Below are positions 10,441 through 44,858 of a stretch of DNA of 58,133 nucleotides, one piece after another. The stretch spans positions 1-58,133 of the forward strand of contig JADIIU010000085.1 in assembly GCA_027603945.1 (NCBI GenBank), read 5' to 3'. A program made the translations under genes and the position numbers. Within the stretch, counting starts at the first letter, position 1. Each line of letters opens with the position of its first letter. Below the pieces are notes generated by a model. It saw nothing but the letters and a program-made list of their open reading frames with translations. It was not told where the DNA came from and did no database searches. Source of the stretch: Terramyces sp. JEL0728. Its lineage: Eukaryota > Chytridiomycota > Chytridiomycetes > Rhizophydiales > Terramycetaceae.

Positions 10441-11558
10441 TTAATGTTTTTGGCTAATACCAAATAATTCATAAACACTGCTCTTTATGCGGGAGTCTAG
10501 TGTGACTAGCAAAATAGGGTTCACTGCGCTGTTGCTTAGTGCGGCGATAGAAACTAAATTAATTCCCTATTACCAAAATTATCCCAGCCGGAAGGAATGG
10601 GGTTACTGGTTGCAAATGAATACAGTATCATGATTAGATATGGTGTCCTAAATAAGAAATGTTTACCAGCACACTACAAATGTCCCACAAATAATAATAG
10701 ATTTAATCAGTAGTTTTTTTTCTTTCTCTTTTGATGTCGACGTAGTTGAACCCTTAGTCGCTTGCGAATTGCTGCTTTCCATGGTATTTGTTCCTCGCGA
10801 AAAAGTAGTGTTTTCTTTTGCAGTGGTTGTCTGCATGCCTGACTGGAATCCTGAGCTACGGACAGCAGACTGTGCCTTCATATAAGTATAGACAATCATG
10901 ACCAAGTTAAAAATTGAATACAATAAGCGTAAAATATAAATGAAACCGCTAAAGCCAATGCTACTAGGCAAATCAAAATCATTAGGATAGTCATTGGGTG
11001 TTTGTCCCACCATGAATTGGTACATTGCTCCCGTCCTGGCTGTAGTGCAATCGCATAATCAAAAGATAATGTATAGATTGGAAATAAAGCTATGACCAGA
11101 CTGGAACTCCATATCAATGCGATGATTATCCATACTTCCGATAGTTTTAAAGTTCTTCCAAACATTACCGCCAGATATCGTTCGACTGTCACTGCAACTA
11201 GTGTTAATACCGATGCAAAGCATCCTAGAATTAATAACATAAACCTCCAGTAACGAGCACAGAGTCGATTATGCACCCAATTTTCCCACTAGACCAACCT
11301 CCAAATGATAAATCTGATTAATGCCTCCATACCTCTAATTCCAAATATTATCGCACTAAGACAGAATATTAAATCTGCCCAACATAGTGATAATAGTAAG
11401 ATGGTGGAAGGATTATTCTTTCTGGACAATGTCGCAAAAAGCACGATTACTACCGATAAAGCTCCGAATAATCCAGTTATCGTGTGAATCACTAATCCCG
11501 CTACCTCTCCGCCGCTTTCGAATGGTATCAAATTTCCATTAATATTATTGATATTCAT
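10441..11558 (-). CDS. Class A (rhodopsin-like) GPCR 1
   Basis: Six exons, 339 aa. Introns: 11314..11332 (19), 11225..11244 (20), 10902..10921 (20), 10648..10666 (19), 10554..10573 (20). Seven hydrophobic segments. TM2 contains LLLSLCWADLIFC. The TM3 start has GKIGC, with its Cys likely paired to EQC in loop 2. TM3 ends VERYLAV (E/DRY position), TM6 has CWTPY (CWxP), and TM7 has NSAVNPILL followed by LDSRI. The third loop is Ser/Thr-rich. Exons 1, 2, 3 and 5 match the sizes in receptors 2-4 exactly. The third intron must end in TTGG to keep both frame and the 303-nt exon, a non-AG acceptor. The ligand cannot be inferred. Confidence 0.85.
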
Positions 11559-12052
11559 TGGATTTGCGAGAAAAAGTTGACATCATCCACATCAATTTGT
11601 GTTGATCAACGCGAATGAGATTTTAGGATATTCAAATTGATGTACGCGAATAATGCTTAATTCACAGTGATGGTATCATTGGGGTTTTCTATACAAAGCA
11701 ACCAAGATCCTACTTGGCTCCAAAATACATCTCTGCTGGTGAATTCACTAAACAGATGAAACAGCAATCTTTTGAAATCGCAATACCCGGCATATGGCCA
11801 AGTATAATATTGGCAAGTCGGTGAGTACAATCGTAGTTGACAATATGGTTAACCCTACAAGTACATTTCTTAGTCTTTACCGATTATACTGTACCTGAAT
11901 TAGTTCCAAGTGGTTCCCAGCCTTTCTATTATCGGCAGTTCTATTGGAGTTATTAGTAGCGACAAATTCCAGTGACCTCAATTGTAAACAATACGCAACA
12001 GGAATCCGGAATTTTGATTTACACCATTTATTCCAAGATATCTCATTTTCAT
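11559..12052. other. Intergenic spacer between receptors 1 and 2
   Basis: 494 bp, AT-rich. It holds the promoter of receptor 1 and the 3' region of receptor 2. I found no convincing exon, relic or RNA gene beyond the CRE-like site listed separately. Confidence 0.5.
11578..11585 (+). promoter_or_regulatory. CRE-like octamer TGACATCA upstream of GPCR 1
   Basis: Lies 20 nt upstream of the receptor 1 ATG. It differs by one base from the CRE palindrome TGACGTCA bound by ATF/CREB-type bZIP proteins. The same octamer also occurs upstream of the SET gene at 39356, so it may not be receptor-specific. Confidence 0.3.
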
Positions 12053-13191
12053 CTATTTTGCTTTTGGCTTTAGATGCAACAGCTCAACGACGTAGCTTCT
12101 GATTCGAGAGTCCAAAGTAATAAGCAGAATAGGGTTAACCGCGCTATTTAACAGTGCTGCGATTGAAACTAGTTTAGAAAACAAATACTCAGCGAATCCC
12201 AGAATGGGGGTGCTGGAAGCGCAGTTATCAACGAATAAATAATCATCAGCAAATAAGGAGTCCTATGATAAAGCGTAAAGTACCAACAGAAAATAAATGT
12301 ACCTGAAATAATAATAGCCTTGATAAGCAGCATCATTTCTTTATCTTTTGGTGCAGATATAAGCTCACTTTTGGTTGCTTGGGAACTACTGCTTTGCGCT
12401 GAAGCTTTAGCACTTGATTTGATTGCTTTCTTTTCTGGAACTGGATCTGTGGTCGAAGACTGGAGGGAGGGCTTTCCACCAGATACTTTTACAGCGGCTT
12501 GCGTTTGGAAATATTTAAGAACTATCATGACTATGTTAATAACTATTACAATAGGCAAAAAAGATAAAGGAAACAGACGCGGCTAGGGTAAGCAAACATA
12601 GGGTAAGCATGAGGATATTCATTGGATGTCTATCCCACCAGGCTACGGTGCAAATTTGTCGTCCAGGTTGCAAAGCTAGAACGTAGCCATAAGTACCGGT
12701 ATACCATGGAAAGGTAGCTATAAGGAAGCTCAATACCCAAATTAAGCCAATCATTATCCAAATTTCAGAGAATTTTAGAATCTTTCCATACATCACAGCA
12801 AGGTATCTTTCCAATGTTATAGCAAAAATAGTCAACACAGAAGCAAAGCATCCTTAGTTAAGATTATTTTACCGCCCAGGACCAAGAGAGTGTCCAGAAG
12901 GCATCCCAGCTTACCACTCGACCACCCTCCGTAAACCAGATCTACGCGTCAAACCAGAACATTACCTTTGATACCAAATATAACTGCACTAAGACAAAAT
13001 ACAAGATCTGCCCAGCATAGCGACAGCAATAGCATGGTAGAAGGGCTATTCTTTCTTGGGAGTGTAGCAAATAGTACAACTAAAACCCCAACAGCGCCAG
13101 CTACACCCATCACCGTGTGTATTGCTAGTCCTGCAACCTCCCCACTATCTTCGAAAGACAGTATGCTGCTGCTAAGCTGGTCAATGTTCAT
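12053..13191 (-). CDS. Class A (rhodopsin-like) GPCR 2
   Basis: Six exons, 344 aa. Introns: 12942..12965 (24), 12853..12872 (20), 12531..12549 (19), 12263..12283 (21), 12169..12188 (20). Motifs: LSLCWADLVFC in TM2, GKLGC at TM3, LERYLAV after TM3, GRQIC in loop 2, CWTPY in TM6, NSAVNPILL and LDSRI at TM7. The third loop is about 60 residues with many Ser and Lys. The 21-nt fourth intron has no stop codon and is a multiple of three. An ORF search therefore reads through it and loses the CWxP motif; splicing restores it. The WWDRHP motif after the loop-2 Cys recurs as WWD in all six receptors and looks family-specific. Confidence 0.88.
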
Positions 13192-13808
13192 TTAGAAACG
13201 GCAAATATTCCCACGCTCGATGACCTCATCTACCGAACTCACGTGTACCAAGATGAGGAGCAAATAAGGTTCGTTGTCATCTGTATTTCCTTGCCATACC
13301 ATTGATTTAGCGTCGTTTGAATATCCAGCTGTTTAACCAAAAAATCTGAAAATTGCGTGATTTTCCAAAACTTTCTTTTTGATTTGATCAATTCATTGTG
13401 ATCATTTAACCATGGGTATTGATTTTCTTGTGCAAGTGCCGTAATACAAGTATTTGCTGAAATCCATTTTGCTTAATTTTTCCACAACATTAAATGGCTT
13501 CGGCCGCACGATGATCTGTTATTATTCATCTTGAAGTTTTCAAGCCATGGTTCTATTTGGCTATTGAATAGCAAATTTCATATTGGAATCTATTTCCTAT
13601 CATAATTCAACCATGTAATGAAAGGAGCGAAAAATACAATTGTTCAAAGGATTGCGCCTTGAAACAGCTTCATTTTACACAGAAAAGTAGAAAATCAAGG
13701 ATAAGTTGAACTCTTGAACGAGATTTACTATGAATGTAATTCATTCTTTTGATTATTCAACAAGGAAATGGCAAACCATCGGAATTATTCTAGACTGCTA
13801 ATGCTAGT
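13192..13808. other. Intergenic spacer between receptors 2 and 3
   Basis: 617 bp, the longest spacer in the array and AT-rich. It contains the promoter of receptor 2 near 13192-13260. No exon-like or RNA-like structure was recognised in the rest. Confidence 0.5.
13221..13228 (+). promoter_or_regulatory. CRE-like octamer TGACCTCA upstream of GPCR 2
   Basis: 30 nt upstream of the ATG, inside the decamer ATGACCTCAT that receptors 3 and 4 also carry. About 15 bp further upstream is TCACGTG, also present upstream of receptor 3. Confidence 0.35.
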
Positions 13809-14945
13809 TTATTTGCCGTCAACACCAAGCATCTCGAACACGTATCCTCTGATGCGCGAATCCAAAGTGACGAGAAGTAAAGGATTAATTGCGCTGTTGG
13901 TCACTGCAAATACACATGCTACTGTTAGGAAGATTTACAGACGGAATCCCAAGCAGAAGGGGCGGGAACGCCAGTAGCTAATGAATAGAGAATCATCATC
14001 AAGTACGGCGTCCTGTATAAACTAAAATGTTACCAGCATACAATAAACGTTCCAGATATGAGGATCGACTTGATCAATAACATTCTCTCCTTATCTTTGG
14101 AAGTCTTTTCAATCTTTTCAGGTTTCTCAACTTTCGGCGTATGTGCGCTGCTGGTATTTGCAGATCCCCTTACTGTAGACTGGCCCTTGCCTTCACTTTT
14201 TTTGTCGGTAATAGCTGCTTTGATTTCAGACAAATTTTCTGAACTGTGAACAGCAGCTTGGCTACTTAAAAACTTCAACACTATCATGACTACATTAGCT
14301 GGCATTACCATAGGCATACACAATAAAGGAAACTGATAATGCCAGCGTAACCAAACTAATAGTAATCATCACTATTGTCATTGGGCTTCTGTCCCACCAT
14401 GCCACTGCACATATCACTTTTCCAGGATGCAGAGCCAGGGCATACTCTTGACTACTGGTGTAAAGGGGAAACGTTGCTATCAGTATAGACGAAATCCAAA
14501 TGGCACAGATCCAAAATCTTACTTCAGACGAATCCAAATGCCTCCCTTGTAATACTGCTCTATATCGCTCAAGGGTGATCGCGATAATACAAAATACGGA
14601 CGCAAAGCAGCCTATATCAACTAATTTTACCTCCTAGAATCAACACAGAATTCAGAATACATCCAACACGACCAGTAGACCAGCCGCCAGCGGATAAATC
14701 TACCGTTAGCTCAGATTACCCTTTGACCCGAAAATCGTCGTGCTAATGCAAAATATCAAATCCGCAAAACAAAGGGATATCAACAGCGAGGTGGACGCAT
14801 TGTTTTTCTTTGGGATGGTGGCAACAAGAACGATTAGTACTCCAATACACCCCAAAATTCCCAGCATTGTATGGAGTACAACCCCGGCAATTTCTCCTCC
14901 ATTCTGAAATTCTACTAACTGGCCAGACACTCCATTTAAATTCAT
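13809..14945 (-). CDS. Class A (rhodopsin-like) GPCR 3
   Basis: Six exons, 345 aa. Introns: 14700..14719 (20), 14612..14630 (19), 14290..14308 (19), 14013..14033 (21), 13919..13938 (20). Motifs: LLISLCFADLIFC in TM2 (the usual Trp is Phe), GRVGC, LERYRAV, GKVIC, CWTPY, NSAINPLLL and LDSRIRGYV. The third loop has several Lys/Glu-rich Ser/Thr clusters (about 70 residues). The member is full length with all splice sites GT...AG, so it appears functional. Confidence 0.87.
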
Positions 14946-14967
14946 TTAGAAAATGCAAGATATTCAA

Positions 14968-14975
14968 TGACCTCA
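14968..14975 (+). promoter_or_regulatory. CRE-like octamer TGACCTCA upstream of GPCR 3
   Basis: 23 nt upstream of the ATG, again within ATGACCTCAT and followed about 10 bp later by TTCACGTG. The arrangement closely matches the receptor 2 promoter. Confidence 0.35.
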
Positions 14976-15132
14976 TCACTAGTTCACGTGTAGCAGGTTG
15001 ATCTTGAATTTTTGGAGCAGGGTATTTAATCCCAATCAACCGAAAAGTTGGCTTTGTTTCGTATGATAGTTTGGCAATGTTTATTATCGAGACCAAATTA
15101 TTTGCTACAGTGCGATTGTTACCATCAAAAGT

Positions 15133-16275
15133 TTATTTTTTCCCCTTCAATCTCAACATTTCCAAGACATATCCTCGAATTCTCTTATCCAAAGTAAACA
15201 AGAGCACAGGGTTTACAGCGCTATTACAAAGCGCGAATATGGAGACTATGTAAATTGCTCATTACCTAACGAATCCCAAAACGCTGGAGCAGGCAAGCCA
15301 GAAACAAGGGAATAAACAATTACAATCAAGTATGGACTCCTCGTATCAATCGATATTTACCAGCAAGTGATAAAAGTTCCGGATATAATGATTGACTTTA
15401 TCAAAAGTACTTTTTCCTTTTCTCGGGAATTTTCAGTTTTTGGTGCCACAGTGCTTATGCTTTGATGGTGGCTATTTTCTGCAGCTGTAGATTTACCTTT
15501 AGAATTATCCGCAGTCTTTTTGTCGGACGACAGATCTACATTTGAAGAATGTCCCCCAGATTTACCACCCCCACGAACCGCAGCTTGAGATTGCATAAAC
15601 TTCCATACGATCATGACTACGTCAAGGGAAACTTACAGTATGCGTAAAAGATAAAGGAAACGGCAACAGCCAGCGTGACCAAACTGAGAGTAATCAATAA
15701 AATAGTCATTGGTTGGCGGTCCCACCACGCGACAGTGCAAATCTGTCTTCCAGGCTGAAGTCCCACTGCGTCTCCATAAGTTCCTGTATACCAAGGAAAG
15801 AACGCGATAACGAGACTGAACCCCCAGATCATTGAAATTATTAGTCGTACTTTTGTAGCATCAATAAGCTTTCCATACATGACTGCCAAAAATCTTTCGA
15901 AAGTAATTGCGAGAATAGTCAGTACCGAAGCAAAGCATCCTAGAGTGAAATTAAAGTACCTGCCAATACAAACACGTTGTCTATATTACATCCCAGCTTT
16001 CCACTGGACCATCCGCCAGCAGCCAAATCTATGTCACGAAACGGATTACCTTTAAATCCAAAGATTACCGCGCTGATACAAAACACCAAATCTGCCCAGC
16101 AAAGTGATAGTAAGAGCAAAGTAGATGGATTGTTTTTCCTTGGAATTGTGGCAGCCAGTACTGTTATGACACCGACTGTTCCTGTAATTCCAAGCAAAAG
16201 ATGTATAACAACGCCAGCTGCTTCTCCTGGACTTTCAAACGGTATAAGGTTGTCTGGGACTTGATTGATATTCAT
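15133..16275 (-). CDS. Class A (rhodopsin-like) GPCR 4
   Basis: Six exons, 346 aa. Introns: 16029..16049 (21, stopless and in frame), 15940..15959 (20), 15617..15636 (20), 15340..15360 (21), 15246..15265 (20). Motifs: LSLCWADLVFC, GKLGC, FERFLAV (TM3 end; Tyr of the motif is Phe), GRQIC, CWSPY, NSAVNPVLL. The helix-8 start LDKRI replaces the LDSRI of its neighbours. The third loop is Ser/His/Lys-rich. The spacers on both sides are under 200 bp. Confidence 0.87.
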
Positions 16276-16299
16276 TTGAAACTAACGAGCAGAATATTA

Positions 16300-16307
16300 T
16301 GACCTCA
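16300..16307 (+). promoter_or_regulatory. CRE-like octamer TGACCTCA upstream of GPCR 4
   Basis: 25 nt upstream of the ATG, third occurrence of ATGACCTCAT in the array. Receptors 5 and 6 have only half-sites (TGACGTAT at 17560, TGACGTTT at 18908). Confidence 0.35.
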
Positions 16308-16460
16308 TGAAATTTTGAACAATCAGCCTGTCATCATCGATTTCATTGTAATAGGTCATACTCCATCCTCTACAAATCTATCCAATATGTGTGAATGCTT
16401 GATACATTGCAAATAATAGCGTCCATTACTATCCTATGTTTCTGTACAATTTCCATAGTG

Positions 16461-17523
16461 TCAAGTGTGTCGGAACATGTTTTTGATATAGTTACGCACT
16501 CGAGAATCAAGACATATCAATAGGATGGGGTTGGTAGCGCTGCTACCGAGACATATATTTGTTACTTGATTAGAGGATTTCAACCTATCATATCCCATTT
16601 TGGGCTTATTGGAGCTTTCGTAACGATTGATATAATAATAAGAATAAGGTACGGCGACCTAAGTAAGTGTTGAATACCATAGAAATATCACTGCGGTGGA
16701 TATTGTGACAGCTTTCCAAAATAACAATCTCTCTTCTTCCGAAAAGTCGCTGGCTGACGAGAAGGTGTAAGCGGACTGCTGAGGATAGATTATTGATACT
16801 TTCTCGTCAGGTTCTTGATTGGTATTCAAACCATAGTACGAGAGCGACTTTTTTGACTTTTTAAATTTCAGGAATATCATAGCCAAGTTAAATCAGAGTT
16901 ACCATAAGCCAGTACGATAATAAACCCATTCACCGAAAGGCTCCCAAGTCCAATTATACTTACTAACAGCGCTTCCGTATCCCACCAGGCTATGGTACAC
17001 AGCAGCATTGATGGCTGTAACGCAATGGATTTCCCAAAAGTGTTTGAAATAATTGGGGATAGAGCTAGTAATAAGCTTATTGCCCATATTGATATCAGCC
17101 AAATATATACGGATTTGCTTTCCAACGGCTTTGCCCAAACAATCGTAAAATACCTTTCGACTGCTATAGCCAACAGAGAATTTATCGAAGCAAAGCAACC
17201 AAGGATTAACGACGAATACCAAATAATACAAGGACAGAATCTATAACGCACCCCAGTTTCCCCGTCGCCCATCTTCCGTTATACAAATCTAGAATCAATG
17301 ACCTGATACTGATGCTTGCAAAAAACACTTCGCTTGCGCTAAATATAAAATCTGCCGTGCAAAGTGATATTAGGAACATTGCTGACGGATGCAATTTCCT
17401 GGAAAGAGTCGCTGTAATTACCAATCCTGTTCCCAACACGCCAATTATTGCAATACATAATCCAATCACTTCGCCAAAAATCTCCGTCGGGTATATATCT
17501 GCTGCAAAATTATCTATATTCAT
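16461..17523 (-). CDS. Class A (rhodopsin-like) GPCR 5, divergent member
   Basis: Six exons, 320 aa. Introns: 17289..17309 (21), 17200..17219 (20), 16883..16902 (20), 16659..16677 (19), 16565..16584 (20). Motifs: SLCTADFIF in TM2, GKLGC, VERYFTI, MLLC plus WWD in loop 2, LWSPY in TM6 (the Cys of CWxP is Leu), and NPILL with LDSRV. The third loop is the shortest of the array. Two introns need non-AG acceptors: 17200..17219 ends CTTG and 16883..16902 ends TTGG. With those ends exons 2 (69 nt) and 5 (74 nt) keep the sizes seen in the sister genes and the whole CDS stays open. Either these sites are used or the gene is beginning to decay. Confidence 0.78.
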
Positions 17524-17739
17524 GGGCAGTATCCTTTTAATAGAGAGTTTTCTTTGTAATGACGTATCTGGTCCTCCAAGTTGAGCGATATTAGTCTCTA
17601 ACCAATCAAAATAAAATTGCCATTAACACATTTTATCATGCCAGAGGGCTTGTACAAAAAATTCTATTGGAATCGGTTGCTTTCCAAATGTAAGAAAATA
17701 TTACGAAAAATTACCGGAATAAGTGCATTTTTATTTCTT

Positions 17740-18837
17740 CTATATTGAAAATGAGGTTATGCTATGTTGATTATGCTGTTTCCTGTGGAACAATTCTGCT
17801 ACAGAGTTTGCCACTCTTGAATCAAGAGTAATTAGTAAGTACGGATTGAGTGCGCTGCTAGACAAACACAAGTTGGTCGCTGAGATTAGGGATAATTACC
17901 TAGCGAATCCCAAAATGGTAAAACTTGGTTTCCTGTTATTAGCGAATAGGTGATGAGTATCAAGTAAGGCGTCCTAAATCAGCAAAATGTACCAGCAAGT
18001 TATGAATGCTGCAGATATCACTACTGATTTCCTGAATAAAGCCTTTTCTTCGTCCTTGTATACAAAACTGTTAAATGAAGATGATGTAGCAGTGGACGAT
18101 CGCACAAATAACGTCGGTAGCTGATTTTCCGGCTGCTCTTCAATGCTTGAATGTGTGGCCGCAAAGGTTTGTAATGCGGCTTTCGTTTCCCTGTATTTGA
18201 GGACAATCGACACTAAATTAGCAGCATATACCATATGCAAAAACAATAAAGACATCTGTGGCTATTAAAGTCCCAAGACTGAGCAATATCATTAATAGTG
18301 AATTGGGATTTTTATCCCACCACGCAATTGTACACAACTCCATTGATGGCTGCAAAGCAATCGCAGTTCCAAAGGAATAACTGTAAACGGGGTAAAGTGC
18401 AATCAACCAACTAGCTATCCATATTAGTGATATCCACAGCCAAGGATCATGGATATTCATTGGTTTCCCAATAACGATTGCATTATATCTTTCTAGAGCT
18501 ATTCCAAATATGGAATAAACTGATCCAAAACAACCCGCTAACACCATTACAGTACTAATAACACATCCTACCTTTCCAACTGCCCATCCCCCAAAGTATA
18601 TATCTCGAATTAGTCAGATTTACTTAGCGCACTGTATACGACAGCACAGGAGCAAAAAATTGAATCCGCCCAACAAAGCGACAATAGCAAAAGTGTAGAT
18701 GGATGGTTTTTCCGAAACAATGTTGCAACCAGAACTATAGCCACGCCAATTAATCCAATTAATCCAATAATCAACCCAAAAAATTCTCCAACATTCCTGA
18801 ACGCAATTATACGATCCGGAAATTCATTGATGTTCAT
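17740..18837 (-). CDS. Class A (rhodopsin-like) GPCR 6, lacking one intron
   Basis: Five exons, 339 aa. Introns: 18604..18623 (20), 18213..18231 (19), 17974..17992 (19), 17880..17899 (20). The intron that separates exons 2 and 3 in the other five members is absent. The joined exon is 372 nt, exactly 69 + 303, reading straight through MVLAGCFGS. Motifs: LSLCWADSIFC, GKVGC, LERYNAI, MELC plus WWD, CWTPY, and NPYLL in TM7. The C-terminal tail is longest here. It is the most upstream (5') gene of the array and is divergent from OMA1. Confidence 0.86.
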
Positions 18838-38483: not shown

Positions 38484-39356
38484 TTATTGTCTGGTTGAAA
38501 AGTAATTGTCGCCATAGTTGGTAGTGAGTTCTTGGTCCTTGCCTATGTCTCTGCCGGCTACATACAACACATGCCATAATCCATTGCGAGGAACATACTC
38601 TACGTTTGTATTATACTCTTCTGCATGATTTACAAACCGCAGATAGTTGCCGTATTTGAGTCCGTTGATACCAATCCTCACCGGTTCGTCATCCATAATT
38701 TTGGATTGATACTCCCATTCATAGTCTGTATTCCATGAATACGCGGTTAGTTCACCAGCATACATACCGATTACTTGTTTGGCAGGGATATCTCGTTTGG
38801 CAAATAACCCAAATCCTGTTTCTGGTGATGCCCATTTGACGTAAAAATGATCTCTGAGATACGCTTCTTGATCGGGAATATCAAAGAAAGACTCAGTGTT
38901 CAACATCATCTCATCAATGTGATTTTTGTTTAGGAGGTAGTGCTGATCGGTGAACACATTGTGGTCTTCGAGCAGGATTTCCAACTCTTCATCCAAAATC
39001 AGTTCATGGGTAGGTGTCACTTGGAAAATAGTTTCGAAATCGTCATAGGAATAATGAACGTCTGGGTAGAAGGGAACATTGGGGTTCTTTGGATCAGTGG
39101 CAAGGTATTTCAGATAGTTTGTGTGAGGGTTATGCTTGTCGTCTGGTTCAGATTCCTTGCTGATAATTTCCTGATACTGGTGGATAACTTCCTTGTAGCG
39201 GTCGATTTGTTCTACCAATGCAATGTTTTTCTTGTTGACAGCAACCAATCGCGAGCCCATATAAGAGAACAGTAGCCCTGATATTGCAAGTACAGCAAAA
39301 TTTACATCAGTGAGTAACTTCCAGCTGTTTGCTCTTGGTTTGTTTTCTACTGACAT
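38484..39356 (-). CDS. Membrane-anchored SET-domain protein 1
   Basis: Single exon, 290 aa. One N-terminal transmembrane helix (VNFAVLAISGLLFSYMG, residues ~18-34) is followed by a coiled-coil stretch (KKNIALVEQIDRYKEVIHQY) and a linker. The SET domain begins near residue 175: GFGLFAKRDIPAKQVIGMYAGEL, then NYLRFVNHAEEYNTNVEYV (the RFxNH core) and ELTTNYGDNYF (the YG core). SET domains transfer methyl groups to lysines. A membrane-tethered SET protein is atypical, and its substrate cannot be inferred. Pre- and post-SET Cys clusters are absent. Confidence 0.87.
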   Translation of the reverse strand: MSVENKPRANSWKLLTDVNFAVLAISGLLFSYMGSRLVAVNKKNIALVEQIDRYKEVIHQYQEIISKESEPDDKHNPHTNYLKYLATDPKNPNVPFYPDVHYSYDDFETIFQVTPTHELILDEELEILLEDHNVFTDQHYLLNKNHIDEMMLNTESFFDIPDQEAYLRDHFYVKWASPETGFGLFAKRDIPAKQVIGMYAGELTAYSWNTDYEWEYQSKIMDDEPVRIGINGLKYGNYLRFVNHAEEYNTNVEYVPRNGLWHVLYVAGRDIGKDQELTTNYGDNYFSTRQ

Positions 39357-39377
39357 TGAATTTTGGATAAAAAGTTC

Positions 39378-39388
39378 ATTGACATCAT
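39378..39388 (+). promoter_or_regulatory. TGACATCA site upstream of SET protein 1
   Basis: The same octamer as upstream of GPCR 1 occurs about 25 nt upstream of this ATG. It is listed because it bears on whether the site is receptor-specific or a general promoter element. Confidence 0.25.
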
Positions 39389-39447
39389 CGCTGCATTGTC
39401 AAACAGCATTGAAATCAAACAATAGAATTCAAGTGATATATACATAT

Positions 39448-40338
39448 TTATTGCAATGGCCGTGAGCTAAAGTAAGCATCTCCGTAATCGGTGGTAATTT
39501 CTTCACCTTTTTTGATGTCTTTGACAGCTACATACAACACATGCCAAAGACCGTTACGTGGAACAAATTCAGGCTTTGAGTTTGCAGATTCTCCAACATG
39601 ATTCGCAAATCGAAGGTAGTTTCCATACTGCAAAGCATTAACACCAAGATTGACATCTTCGTCATCAACTTCGTCAGTTTGATACTCCCATTCATAATCT
39701 GTATTGGCAGAGTCCGCAACTACCCTTCCGGTGTACACGCCAATAACTTGATTTGCTGGGATATCCTGCTTGGCGTACAATCCAAATCCAGTTTCGATTG
39801 AAACCCATTTAACATAGCAAAGCTCACGCAAGTAAGTTTCTTGATCTTTAATTGCAAAGAATGATTTGGTCTGTTCAATCATTTTGTCGACTTCTTTGCT
39901 ATTTGAAAGGTAGTAATCGTCTGAAAACAAATCGTGCCCATCAAGAATATCTTTGGCTTCGTCATCAACAACCATATAGTGAATTGGCACTACTTGAAAG
40001 ATTGTTTCAAAGTCGTCATAAGTGTACTGCGTGTCTGGATAAAGCGGTTTCTTTGGGTTAAGAGGATCCATTTTGATACTGTCAAAGTAATGAGCATGCG
40101 GTTCATGATCAACCACCAGAGTGTCATTCTTTGGTTCAACGATATGGAATCGATCAATGATGCCTTCATATTTTTCAACCTGCGAATCTAATTGGACAAT
40201 AAGCTTGTTCAACTCCACGATCCTTGTACTCTGGTAGGATATAATCAACCCTGAAATGGTTAGGATGATAAAGTTGTAGTCGGAAAGGAATTTCAGCAAG
40301 CTACCCTTTTTCTTTTCGATTGGCATTTCAGTGTTCAA
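39448..40338 (-). CDS. Membrane-anchored SET-domain protein 2
   Basis: Single exon, 296 aa. Same architecture as its neighbour: hydrophobic helix (YNFIILTISGLIISYQST), a short coiled coil, a linker with YDDFETIFQV shared by both paralogues, then SET. SET motifs: GFGLYAKQDIPANQVIGVYTG, NYLRFANHVGESANSKPEFV and EITTDYGDAYFSSR. The two genes are tandem with 91 bp between them and clearly duplicates, but well diverged, so both have been kept for a long time. Confidence 0.87.
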   Translation of the reverse strand: MNTEMPIEKKKGSLLKFLSDYNFIILTISGLIISYQSTRIVELNKLIVQLDSQVEKYEGIIDRFHIVEPKNDTLVVDHEPHAHYFDSIKMDPLNPKKPLYPDTQYTYDDFETIFQVVPIHYMVVDDEAKDILDGHDLFSDDYYLSNSKEVDKMIEQTKSFFAIKDQETYLRELCYVKWVSIETGFGLYAKQDIPANQVIGVYTGRVVADSANTDYEWEYQTDEVDDEDVNLGVNALQYGNYLRFANHVGESANSKPEFVPRNGLWHVLYVAVKDIKKGEEITTDYGDAYFSSRPLQ

Positions 40339-40782
40339 TCCAATGATTTTATTTATATGAACTGGGCTGAATCAAGGGGATGAAGCCTTCGGTATGAGGC
40401 GATTGCTGATGTTGACGAACTTGAAACGGGTTTTTTTGAACTCAACGGCAGCAAACTTTGTTGTCAACCAAAAAGTCTTTGGTTCAATCTCAATGTGGTA
40501 AATTTGGGCAGTGATGGTATATCGATTAGTCTTCATGAAAATCAATGATTACAAATGCTTTGTTATAATACTGAGCCCTGAATTTTTACCCCTGTTTTAC
40601 TTTTGAATGTGCCACGACACTATCTGTGAATAATCATTCCAAAAATAAAGTAGATGGACTCCATGTCCACTTGTGTTTGTTTTTCACTCTTCGCGCTACA
40701 AGCGAGGCTTGGATATCGCGCTTTTAACTAATTAATTTTTTAAAGCCTTGTAATACAATTAATCACTAATATAGACGAGAAA
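40339..40782. promoter_or_regulatory. Divergent spacer between SET protein 2 and the bZIP gene
   Basis: 444 bp between two starts pointing away from each other. AT-rich, no convincing coding or RNA feature; presumably both promoters. Confidence 0.5.
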
Positions 40783-43330: not shown

Positions 43331-44858
43331 ATGGAAAAAGAGATTTACAATTGCTTCATTCAGTAATAAAAAGACTAAAAAGATTCAATTCAATAAATGA
43401 ACCAAGTTTGCCTACAACCGATCAACCAACAAAGAGACAAGAACTGCTAACAAGAGTAAGAGTTACTAAAACAGATCTATAATGAATTTAAACAATTTGA
43501 TTCGTATTATTCCTGTTTTGAATACTTGGGTTGTTCATCTTCAATTAAAGAACAGAGATTGCTGATTCAAGAGTTGAAAGATGTTCCGAATGAAATACTA
43601 GACTTGATCAATAACGAATTTATTCTTAGGTTTACTGTATATTAATTCTTAGGTAAAACACTTTAACATAAAGGTAAAAGGATTTAACATAAAGGTACGA
43701 GGATTTAACAAAGATTGTCAAAATTATCAAGTATTTTAAATGAATTTGGAAATTGTTTTGTTTCAATTACAGACGAAATCAAAATCACTAATTTAGTAGT
43801 CAAACTTTCTTTTGGTAAAATCAATCAAAATGTAATGGAATTGGAAGATTATTACTCTAGTTTAAAAAACCTGGATTTGTATGAAGACTACTTTGAAATC
43901 TTGGCATTGAAACTAATTGAATTTTTACCAAAACTATCAGAATATACACTTTCTATTGAAAAGAAAATCAATCACAATATCCTTGTTTTCAAGAAACAAA
44001 AGACGGATTTCGTAAAGGAAATGATTGTTTTCGGCAAGTTTATCTCTTTGTTGTTTAAAACCACCAAAGTACCAAACAGTTTCTTGCAAATACTCAATGA
44101 TGGAATTAAAAGATTTGTTAACGAACAAAATATATCTGAATTGGAAATCAATTTATTGCAATATGGATTGCTACTTGAACCATTTACTTTGGAAAAAGAA
44201 AATGCCTTTTTAAAAAGAGCTCAGGACATATTAAAGCAAAAACAAAAGAATATTATCGCAATTAAAAAAGAAACAACAAAGAAGCAACAAGAGGAACTAG
44301 TTGAATATTATATTAGCGACAACATCCAACAAATTCTAGATTTACTAAAAGAATGTGACTACAATACAGGTCAGACTATCCTAGACATGGCTAGAATCTA
44401 TACTACAATAGAAATGATATCTTTTAACGATATGTATCATTTATATAAATATTGCTGTTTAAATGGATTCTTGGATCAGGCTAATTTGTTTATCAAAAAG
44501 CAAAAAGAAATACTAGAAATAGACTACAAATCCACTATTCTGATTCAAGATAAAATAATTGAAAAGTACGAATCGTATAAAGTATTTGTTGTTAACCTAG
44601 CCAATCGCAATTGAAAAAGTGCTAAGCAACCTGATGGGATTGGTTTTGAATGATTATATACTGCTTAAAATCAAAGAGCAAAAGGATTACTATTTGATTA
44701 AACAGGAATTGAAAAAGATTCACCAAATGGGGTTGGTGATTGGGAAGAATCAGTGTAAGAGCTGGGGGCTGCTTCTAGAAGCGATTGATTCGCTAGACAA
44801 GATGGATGTTGCTCTCTTTAGCAAACTCATTGGTGGGGAGGTTTCCGCGCTGGGTTAA
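43331..44858 (+). CDS. Unrecognised 461-aa helical protein; gene contains a stacked intron array
   Basis: Five exons give 461 aa. Introns: 43363..43382 (20), 43456..43474 (19), 43630..43713 (84, composite), 44582..44600 (19). The protein is Leu/Ile/Lys-rich, largely alpha-helical with coiled-coil stretches, no signal peptide and no membrane helix. Segments such as ELEDYYSSLKNLDLYEDYFE and KRAQDILKQKQKNIIAIKK are typical of tethering or scaffold subunits, but I recognise no family. All exon junctions are in frame, including the one across the 84-nt element, which supports the model. Base composition is more AT-rich than its neighbours. Confidence 0.75.
43630..43713 (+). repeat. Four GT...AG intron units stacked back to back
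   Basis: Units: 43630..43652 (23 nt), 43653..43673 (21), 43674..43694 (21), 43695..43713 (19). Each starts with GT and ends with AG, and each has the size of a normal intron here. Units 2-4 are clearly related to each other (GTAAAA...TTTAACATAAAG, with unit 4 GTACGAGGATTTAACAAAG). Every internal border reads AG|GT. Removal of all 84 nt joins ...FILR to LSKLSS in frame. Confidence 0.8.

Follow-up and report, generated by a model that had tools for sequence, protein, structure and literature searches.

Probable head-to-tail stacks of complete ultra-short introns in coding genes of the chytrid Terramyces sp. JEL0728

Introduction

The origin and the lengthening of introns are a long-standing question, and recursive splicing has mostly been discussed for very long introns. 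Both subjects are raised on a very small scale by 84 nt within a coding gene of Terramyces sp. JEL0728, a chytrid whose genus is placed in the order Rhizophydiales. A sequence-only reading of the window (the entire 58,133-base contig C85; the genome comprises 231 contigs and 15,016,339 bases) had claimed that positions 43630-43713 split exactly into four segments of 23, 21, 21 and 19 nt, each beginning with GT and ending with AG. Are these 84 nt four introns, one intron that contains repeats, or an accident of the assembly, and does such an arrangement occur elsewhere in the genome? We consider it probable, from comparisons of sequences and predicted proteins, that they are four complete ultra-short spliceosomal introns stacked in a coding gene, and that this stack belongs to a class that recurs in the genome.

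Results

The four-unit stack and its reading frame

The claimed division of the 84 nt at 43630-43713 into units of 23, 21, 21 and 19 nt was confirmed, with GT at the start and AG at the end of every unit. The units, all on the plus strand, are a putative 23-nt intron with a weak donor, GTTTAC (unit 1, 43630-43652), a 21-nt intron with a branch-like TAAC 10 nt before its end and a weak acceptor (unit 2, 43653-43673), a second 21-nt intron (unit 3, 43674-43694), and a 19-nt intron that has the top score among the four (unit 4, 43695-43713). Segments 2 to 4 had been described as copies of one another, and indeed units 2 and 3 are identical at 18 of 21 bases, while units 3 and 4 share 17 bases with a single 2-nt gap. 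Each border is AG/GT, the AG directly abutting the GT, with a complete intron on either side.

The frame was said to be kept when all 84 nt are removed, and it is: among the 16 combinations of kept and removed units, removal of all four is the only one that leaves the frame open. Retention of some units as coding sequence was rejected, each partial removal leading to a stop codon or a break of the frame. If only introns of 17-26 nt are permitted, the frame has no solution other than the four-unit tiling, and one ordinary intron elsewhere was rejected as well, no single intron and no other combination of introns of that size solving it. When one intron of any length is permitted, the region has four solutions (84, 102, 141 and 159 nt), of which only that of 84 nt yields a product that matches the relative P0002 without a gap. 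The proposal of a stack with AG/GT borders and zero-length exons is supported by this unique tiling with short introns and by the removal of the whole 84 nt.

Chains of abutting GT...AG units of 18-24 nt were compared between the window and 60 dinucleotide shuffles. The window contains one four-unit chain, compared with a mean of 0.017 and a maximum of 1 in the shuffles, and two three-unit chains, compared with 0.73, while two-unit chains showed no excess (38 in the window, 38.5 in the shuffles). The splice signals of this stack are poor. Relative to 326 single introns, the summed splice scores of units 1, 2 and 3 lie at percentiles 1.8, 1.8 and 2.1, that of unit 4 lies at percentile 21.2, and the acceptors of units 2 and 3 lie at percentile 0.6. 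The window stack is among the weaker cases, three of its four units having weak splice signals.

The host gene and its product

The stack lies between an upstream exon (43475-43629, plus strand), which encodes IYNEFKQ...NNEFIL and supplies two bases of the following codon, and a downstream exon (43714-44581, plus strand), which encodes LSKLSSILNEFG... The same strand carries two ordinary 19-nt introns, one upstream at 43456-43474, whose removal joins ...KRQELLTR to IYNEFKQ as in the relative P0003, and one downstream at 44582-44600, which is removed in the annotated protein P0001 too; the last exon (44601-44858, plus strand) ends at the stop codon. Without the 84 nt, the product reads ...NNEFILR/LSKLSSILNEF... 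(the slash marks the junction). Its alignment with ...NNEFIQRLSKLCSILNEF... of Boothiomyces JEL0866 is gapless, and three Boothiomyces proteins match the joined product at identities of 72, 75 and 67%.

Six residues are missing from the JEL0838 protein at the stack junction. An acceptor located 18 nt downstream, which is present in Terramyces as well (the 102-nt solution), would explain this gap in the JEL0838 annotation, and the loss of six residues, as if that acceptor had been used, suggests that there may be an intron at the same place in JEL0838. The annotated Terramyces sp. JEL0728 protein that is identical to part of the host gene starts at 43835 and omits the stack, which lies upstream. 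The residue before the junction is L in Terramyces and Q in both relatives, and the last eight nucleotides of the exon, 43622-43629 (ATTCTTAG), are the same as the final 8 nt of unit 1; the end of the exon was perhaps overwritten.

The start of the product resembles COG2, in our estimation. No name for the gene came from the searches: the joined product had no Pfam match at 0.1, searches at E values up to 10 gave none for P0002 and one weak match, to another family, for P0003, and PDB searches gave three weak, unrelated matches with the single sequence and none with a profile.

Intron lengths in the genome

A gene finder was purpose-built and trained on 258 kb: the window plus a 10-kb stretch of each of the 20 longest contigs. 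The claim that introns of about 20 nt are normal in this genome was borne out, since the intron lengths peaked at 19-22 nt already with a flat length prior, and 326 of the 398 introns predicted by the refined finder were 18-24 nt long, with a mode of 20, a GTA donor and, shortly upstream of the acceptor, a TRAY motif. Many of the introns longer than 100 nt in its output resemble gene fusions. Like the genomes known for ultra-short introns, that of Terramyces has nearly all of its predicted introns in a narrow range of tiny sizes.

A version of the finder that allowed for stacks was run on the 200 kb of the 20 stretches and predicted 237 introns of 17-26 nt, two stacks, and 10 introns of 27-110 nt that cannot be tiled. 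One of the two stacks was that of L018, which this version read as two units; the other was a pair of abutting introns in L020, both counted among the 237. One of the introns that cannot be tiled is an apparent 45-nt intron at positions 4814-4858 of L006, in a gene which we take to be RPS3 (ribosomal protein S3), and it implies that one-step splicing of longer introns is possible. Direct repeats flanking 313 single introns showed no excess over shuffled pairs (at 6 nt or more, 0 were seen and 0.36 expected), and an origin of the single introns by insertions leaving such repeats was rejected; the 8-nt repeat of the window is an exception.

Recurrence of stacks in the genome

Before stacks were modelled, the gene finder had already output a 64-nt intron at L018 that divides into 22+21+21 nt. 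The sequence-only reading had called for a genome search for other stacked units of about 20 nt, and this search found further stacks. Three AGGTA borders at a spacing of 18-25 nt gave at least 63 matches genome-wide, compared with at least 5 at a control spacing of 30-37 nt, while the reversed pattern gave at least 28 at the first spacing and at least 15 at the control spacing. Two patterns that require branch motifs gave at least 24 and at least 31 matches, compared with at least 6 and at least 4, respectively, for their controls. A second control spacing of 39-40 nt gave at least 2 matches, both within the C128 array, and at least 2 when reversed. The pattern matches merged into at least 61 distinct places, part of which are surely due to chance or to other repeats. 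The reversed-pattern control, at least 28 beside at least 63, is not small and counts against the stack reading.

The loci listed for 30 of the 63 three-border matches formed 18 distinct arrays, which together with L018 and the window made 20 places examined. The set of stacks analysed below omits L041, L049 and L051, which have no clear in-frame join across the array, and L048, a near copy of L035, and it includes the second L035 stack and the L020 pair, for a total of 18 stacks and 69 units. The stacks that join in frame contain up to six units, those examined have total lengths of 42-130 nt, and the upstream coding support for the in-frame joins at L022, L027 and L046 is weak. Two further arrays were noted, one of at least seven units at L041 (C51:93511-93673), without a clear reading frame across it, and a group of three stack-like arrays within 1.1 kb at C128:21740-22847, on both strands, one of which has runs of identical 20-nt units.

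Stacks inside conserved genes

Four stacks are located in conserved genes: an 81-nt stack of four units, three of them identical, in the proteasome alpha-6 gene (PSMA6), a 64-nt stack of three units in that of topoisomerase I, a 42-nt stack of two units in that of pyruvate carboxylase, and an 86-nt stack of four units in that of MGM101. In each case the joined product aligned without a gap at the junction with relatives of solved structure. The third unit of the topoisomerase I stack is open in frame, and the alignment with the relatives indicates that it is nevertheless non-coding. A Pfam domain spans the junction in six of ten joined pieces (PSMA6, topoisomerase I, pyruvate carboxylase, MGM101, the MATH case at L031 and a TPR case at L046), while three pieces had no Pfam match and one was matched elsewhere, short of the junction. 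The MATH case had no PDB alignment, and the Pfam match supports its join. As judged by protein homology, no base of a unit is left in the product of the window gene or of the four conserved genes.

The entire 81-nt stack is absent from the GenBank PSMA6 protein (P0005), which reads right across it. The same protein lacks 10 residues beside a predicted 19-nt intron at positions 1225-1243 of L033, which points to probable errors in the annotation of tiny introns in this genome.

How stacks arise and change

The window stack had been attributed to the tandem duplication of one intron in place. This holds for units 2-4, which are copies, and fails for unit 1, which has no recognisable likeness to them (core identity to unit 2, 0.29). 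Related units, defined as pairs more alike than 99% of the pairs drawn from different stacks, a definition to which such short cores give little power, were found in 5 of the 18 fully read stacks, the other 13 being without clear relatedness. The arrays of C79, C91 and C128, which are pattern matches only, include plain repeats.

A change in unit number was found between C37 and C56, which are identical at 2947 of 2985 aligned bases (98.7%) and which have five and four units, respectively, in one stack. The difference there is exactly one 21-nt unit, the other insertions and deletions being located outside that stack, and it indicates gain or loss of entire units, in which duplication has at least some share.

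An alternative origin for the stacks of unrelated units is that they are old, longer introns that newly arisen AG/GT sites cut into bites of about 20 nt while the spliceosome was specialising on tiny introns (compare stwintronisation), and not piles of duplicates or insertions. The 13 stacks without clearly related units agree with such a subdivision, as do the total lengths of 42-130 nt, which fall in the usual range of fungal introns, and the small number of introns of 27-110 nt that cannot be tiled (10, compared with 237 short ones). However, the one-unit difference in copy number and the runs of identical units show growth by duplication in some stacks, and short diverged copies would escape recognition as related. 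We regard subdivision as a somewhat doubtful account of these stacks.

Neighbouring units with unlike 5' halves agree in at least their last six bases in 8 of 65 adjacent pairs, compared with 1.7% of the cross-stack pairs; this comparison is exploratory and its pairs are partly non-independent. Neighbours of this kind that share their last 6-11 bases occur at L025, L035, L037, C51:93511 and C128:21740, and it looks as if the part from the branch motif to the AG had been copied alone.

Units as putative working introns

The three-border pattern demands no branch point. In the units of all 63 of its matches (99 units, 87 distinct sequences), TRAY was found 7-10 nt from the unit end in 62 of the 87 distinct sequences, compared with 14 of 855 at other offsets, and 90 of the 99 units were 20-23 nt long although 18-25 nt were permitted. 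In the 18 stacks, 47 of the 51 non-last units and 16 of the 18 last units carried TRAY at a distance of 7-11 nt from their end. The motif was also kept in 27 of the 31 non-last units that are unrelated to any neighbour; in single introns it was present in 256 of 327. Random GT...AG segments could be tiled by chance in 2 of 28,475 cases at 65-89 nt and in 280 of 28,275 cases at 40-64 nt.

These results bear on a simpler explanation, removal in one step, in which the first donor is used with the last acceptor, the GT and AG sites between them being relics of repeats without a role in splicing. An 84-nt single intron does solve the frame of the window gene, the inner acceptors of its units 2 and 3 are weak, the apparent 45-nt intron of L006 cannot be tiled, and the absence of the whole PSMA6 stack from the GenBank protein leaves the manner of its removal unsaid. 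The branch motifs kept in the 27 of 31 inner units, the narrow lengths of 90 of the 99 units and the rarity of chance tilings at 65-89 nt argue against it. If only the outer sites were used, the inner branch points should decay, and their retention favours excision that would go unit by unit through zero-length exons. We judge removal in one step to be unlikely.

The units of stacks are longer than single introns (mean 21.3 nt compared with 20.2 nt), and the distance from branch to acceptor is 10-11 nt in 23 of 63 stack units compared with 11 of 256 single introns (Fisher p 8.6e-11). This difference was absent from single introns that are preceded by AG or followed by GT.

An assembly error, or a minisatellite that broke the gene, would account for the repeats of units 2-4 but is very improbable, given that substitutions and a 2-nt indel distinguish the units, that the same architecture occurs with unrelated units in conserved genes, and that the remaining frame is open and encodes a product with the identities to the three Boothiomyces proteins given above.

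Discussion

A possible mechanism

In the reading of the 84 nt as four stacked introns, the spliceosome would recognise each unit of about 20 nt by intron definition, across the unit itself, and would excise the units singly. With AG/GT at every border, an intact acceptor-donor border would remain after the removal of any unit, until exon finally meets exon by way of zero-length exons. Stacks would gain and lose entire units; tandem duplication of units may account for units 2-4 of the window and for some other arrays, while stacks of unrelated units would need another route, either the gain of new introns at AG/GT borders or the subdivision of a longer intron. We propose more tentatively, as a conjecture to which we give rather less than even weight, that the Terramyces spliceosome is specialised on introns of about 20 nt, that longer intervening sequences are kept largely as tilings of autonomous introns of this size removed singly, and that a neutral ratchet adds units to stacks and removes them.

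Comparison with known systems

Abutting introns that are excised recursively, through zero-length exons or ratchet points, have already been described (PMC6616335, PMC5126111). The likeness lies in an AG/GT border able to act as an acceptor and then as a donor. However, recursive splicing is known, in these accounts, for large animal introns, whereas the Terramyces pieces would be minimal introns of about 20 nt in a fungus, with a stepwise removal that we infer. The stwintrons of fungi also place several introns at one position, with a proposed consecutive removal, and an origin by duplication has been discussed (PMC7138796, PMC9024468). As portrayed there, they are nested introns, the inner one breaking up a splice element of the outer one, whereas the Terramyces units abut and none is interrupted: no donor, branch point or acceptor is split by an internal intron, and every unit begins with a GT and ends with an AG of its own.

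In fission yeast, gained introns composed of tandem 24-nt repeats are on record (PMC3629103, PMC4974935). In the known repeat system of the AGGT type, the repeats create new borders, as in Terramyces, but they lie inside one exon-derived intron, whereas the Terramyces units are each equipped with a donor, a branch motif and an acceptor, and clearly related units are absent from most of the readable stacks. Mikrocytids, with introns of 16-17 nt (PMC10245619), and Stentor, with introns of 15-16 nt (PMC9505925), resemble Terramyces in confining their introns to a very narrow range of tiny sizes; the word 'tandem' is absent from both main texts, and stacks are not mentioned in these accounts of their introns.

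Introners produce bursts of intron gain, at times adjoining AG (PMC9860276). Terramyces may differ in that near copies between stacks are few in the part of the genome compared and in that the 313 single introns have no excess of flanking repeats. The comparison of the 69 units with one another and with the single introns of the 258 kb, which covered little of the genome and had no control, gave two pairs from different stacks that differ at 4 positions or fewer and two pairs of a unit and a single intron that differ at 3 or fewer. No report of stacks of ultra-short introns was found among the literature matches listed, in a collection with a minority of the subscription journals. If our reading is right, several minimal introns placed head to tail and recurring in one genome are a new architecture.

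Significance

With dozens of candidate minimal-intron stacks in one genome, including one that differs by a unit between near-identical gene copies, short amplicons could be used to test intron gain through the duplication of units, as well as the order in which units are excised. If longer intervening sequences are indeed tilings of introns of about 20 nt under a neutral ratchet, the formation of complex introns by concatenation could be watched directly. The stacks are also a warning that gene models may conceal them and may drop real tiny introns, as in the PSMA6 protein and in the annotated protein of the window gene, which starts downstream of the stack.

Other features of the window

Rfam and tRNA scans of the window led to nothing. 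A tandem duplication of about 6.5 kb occupies the end of the contig (45194-51441 and 51768-58103), where a series of open reading frames is present twice, nearly identical and with the same predicted introns. A run of similar receptor-like open reading frames is located on the minus strand at 10663-18613, and the one that was tested matches the rhodopsin family 7tm_1. Two adjoining open reading frames with similar translations, of which the one tested has a SET domain, are located at 38484-40371, also on the minus strand.
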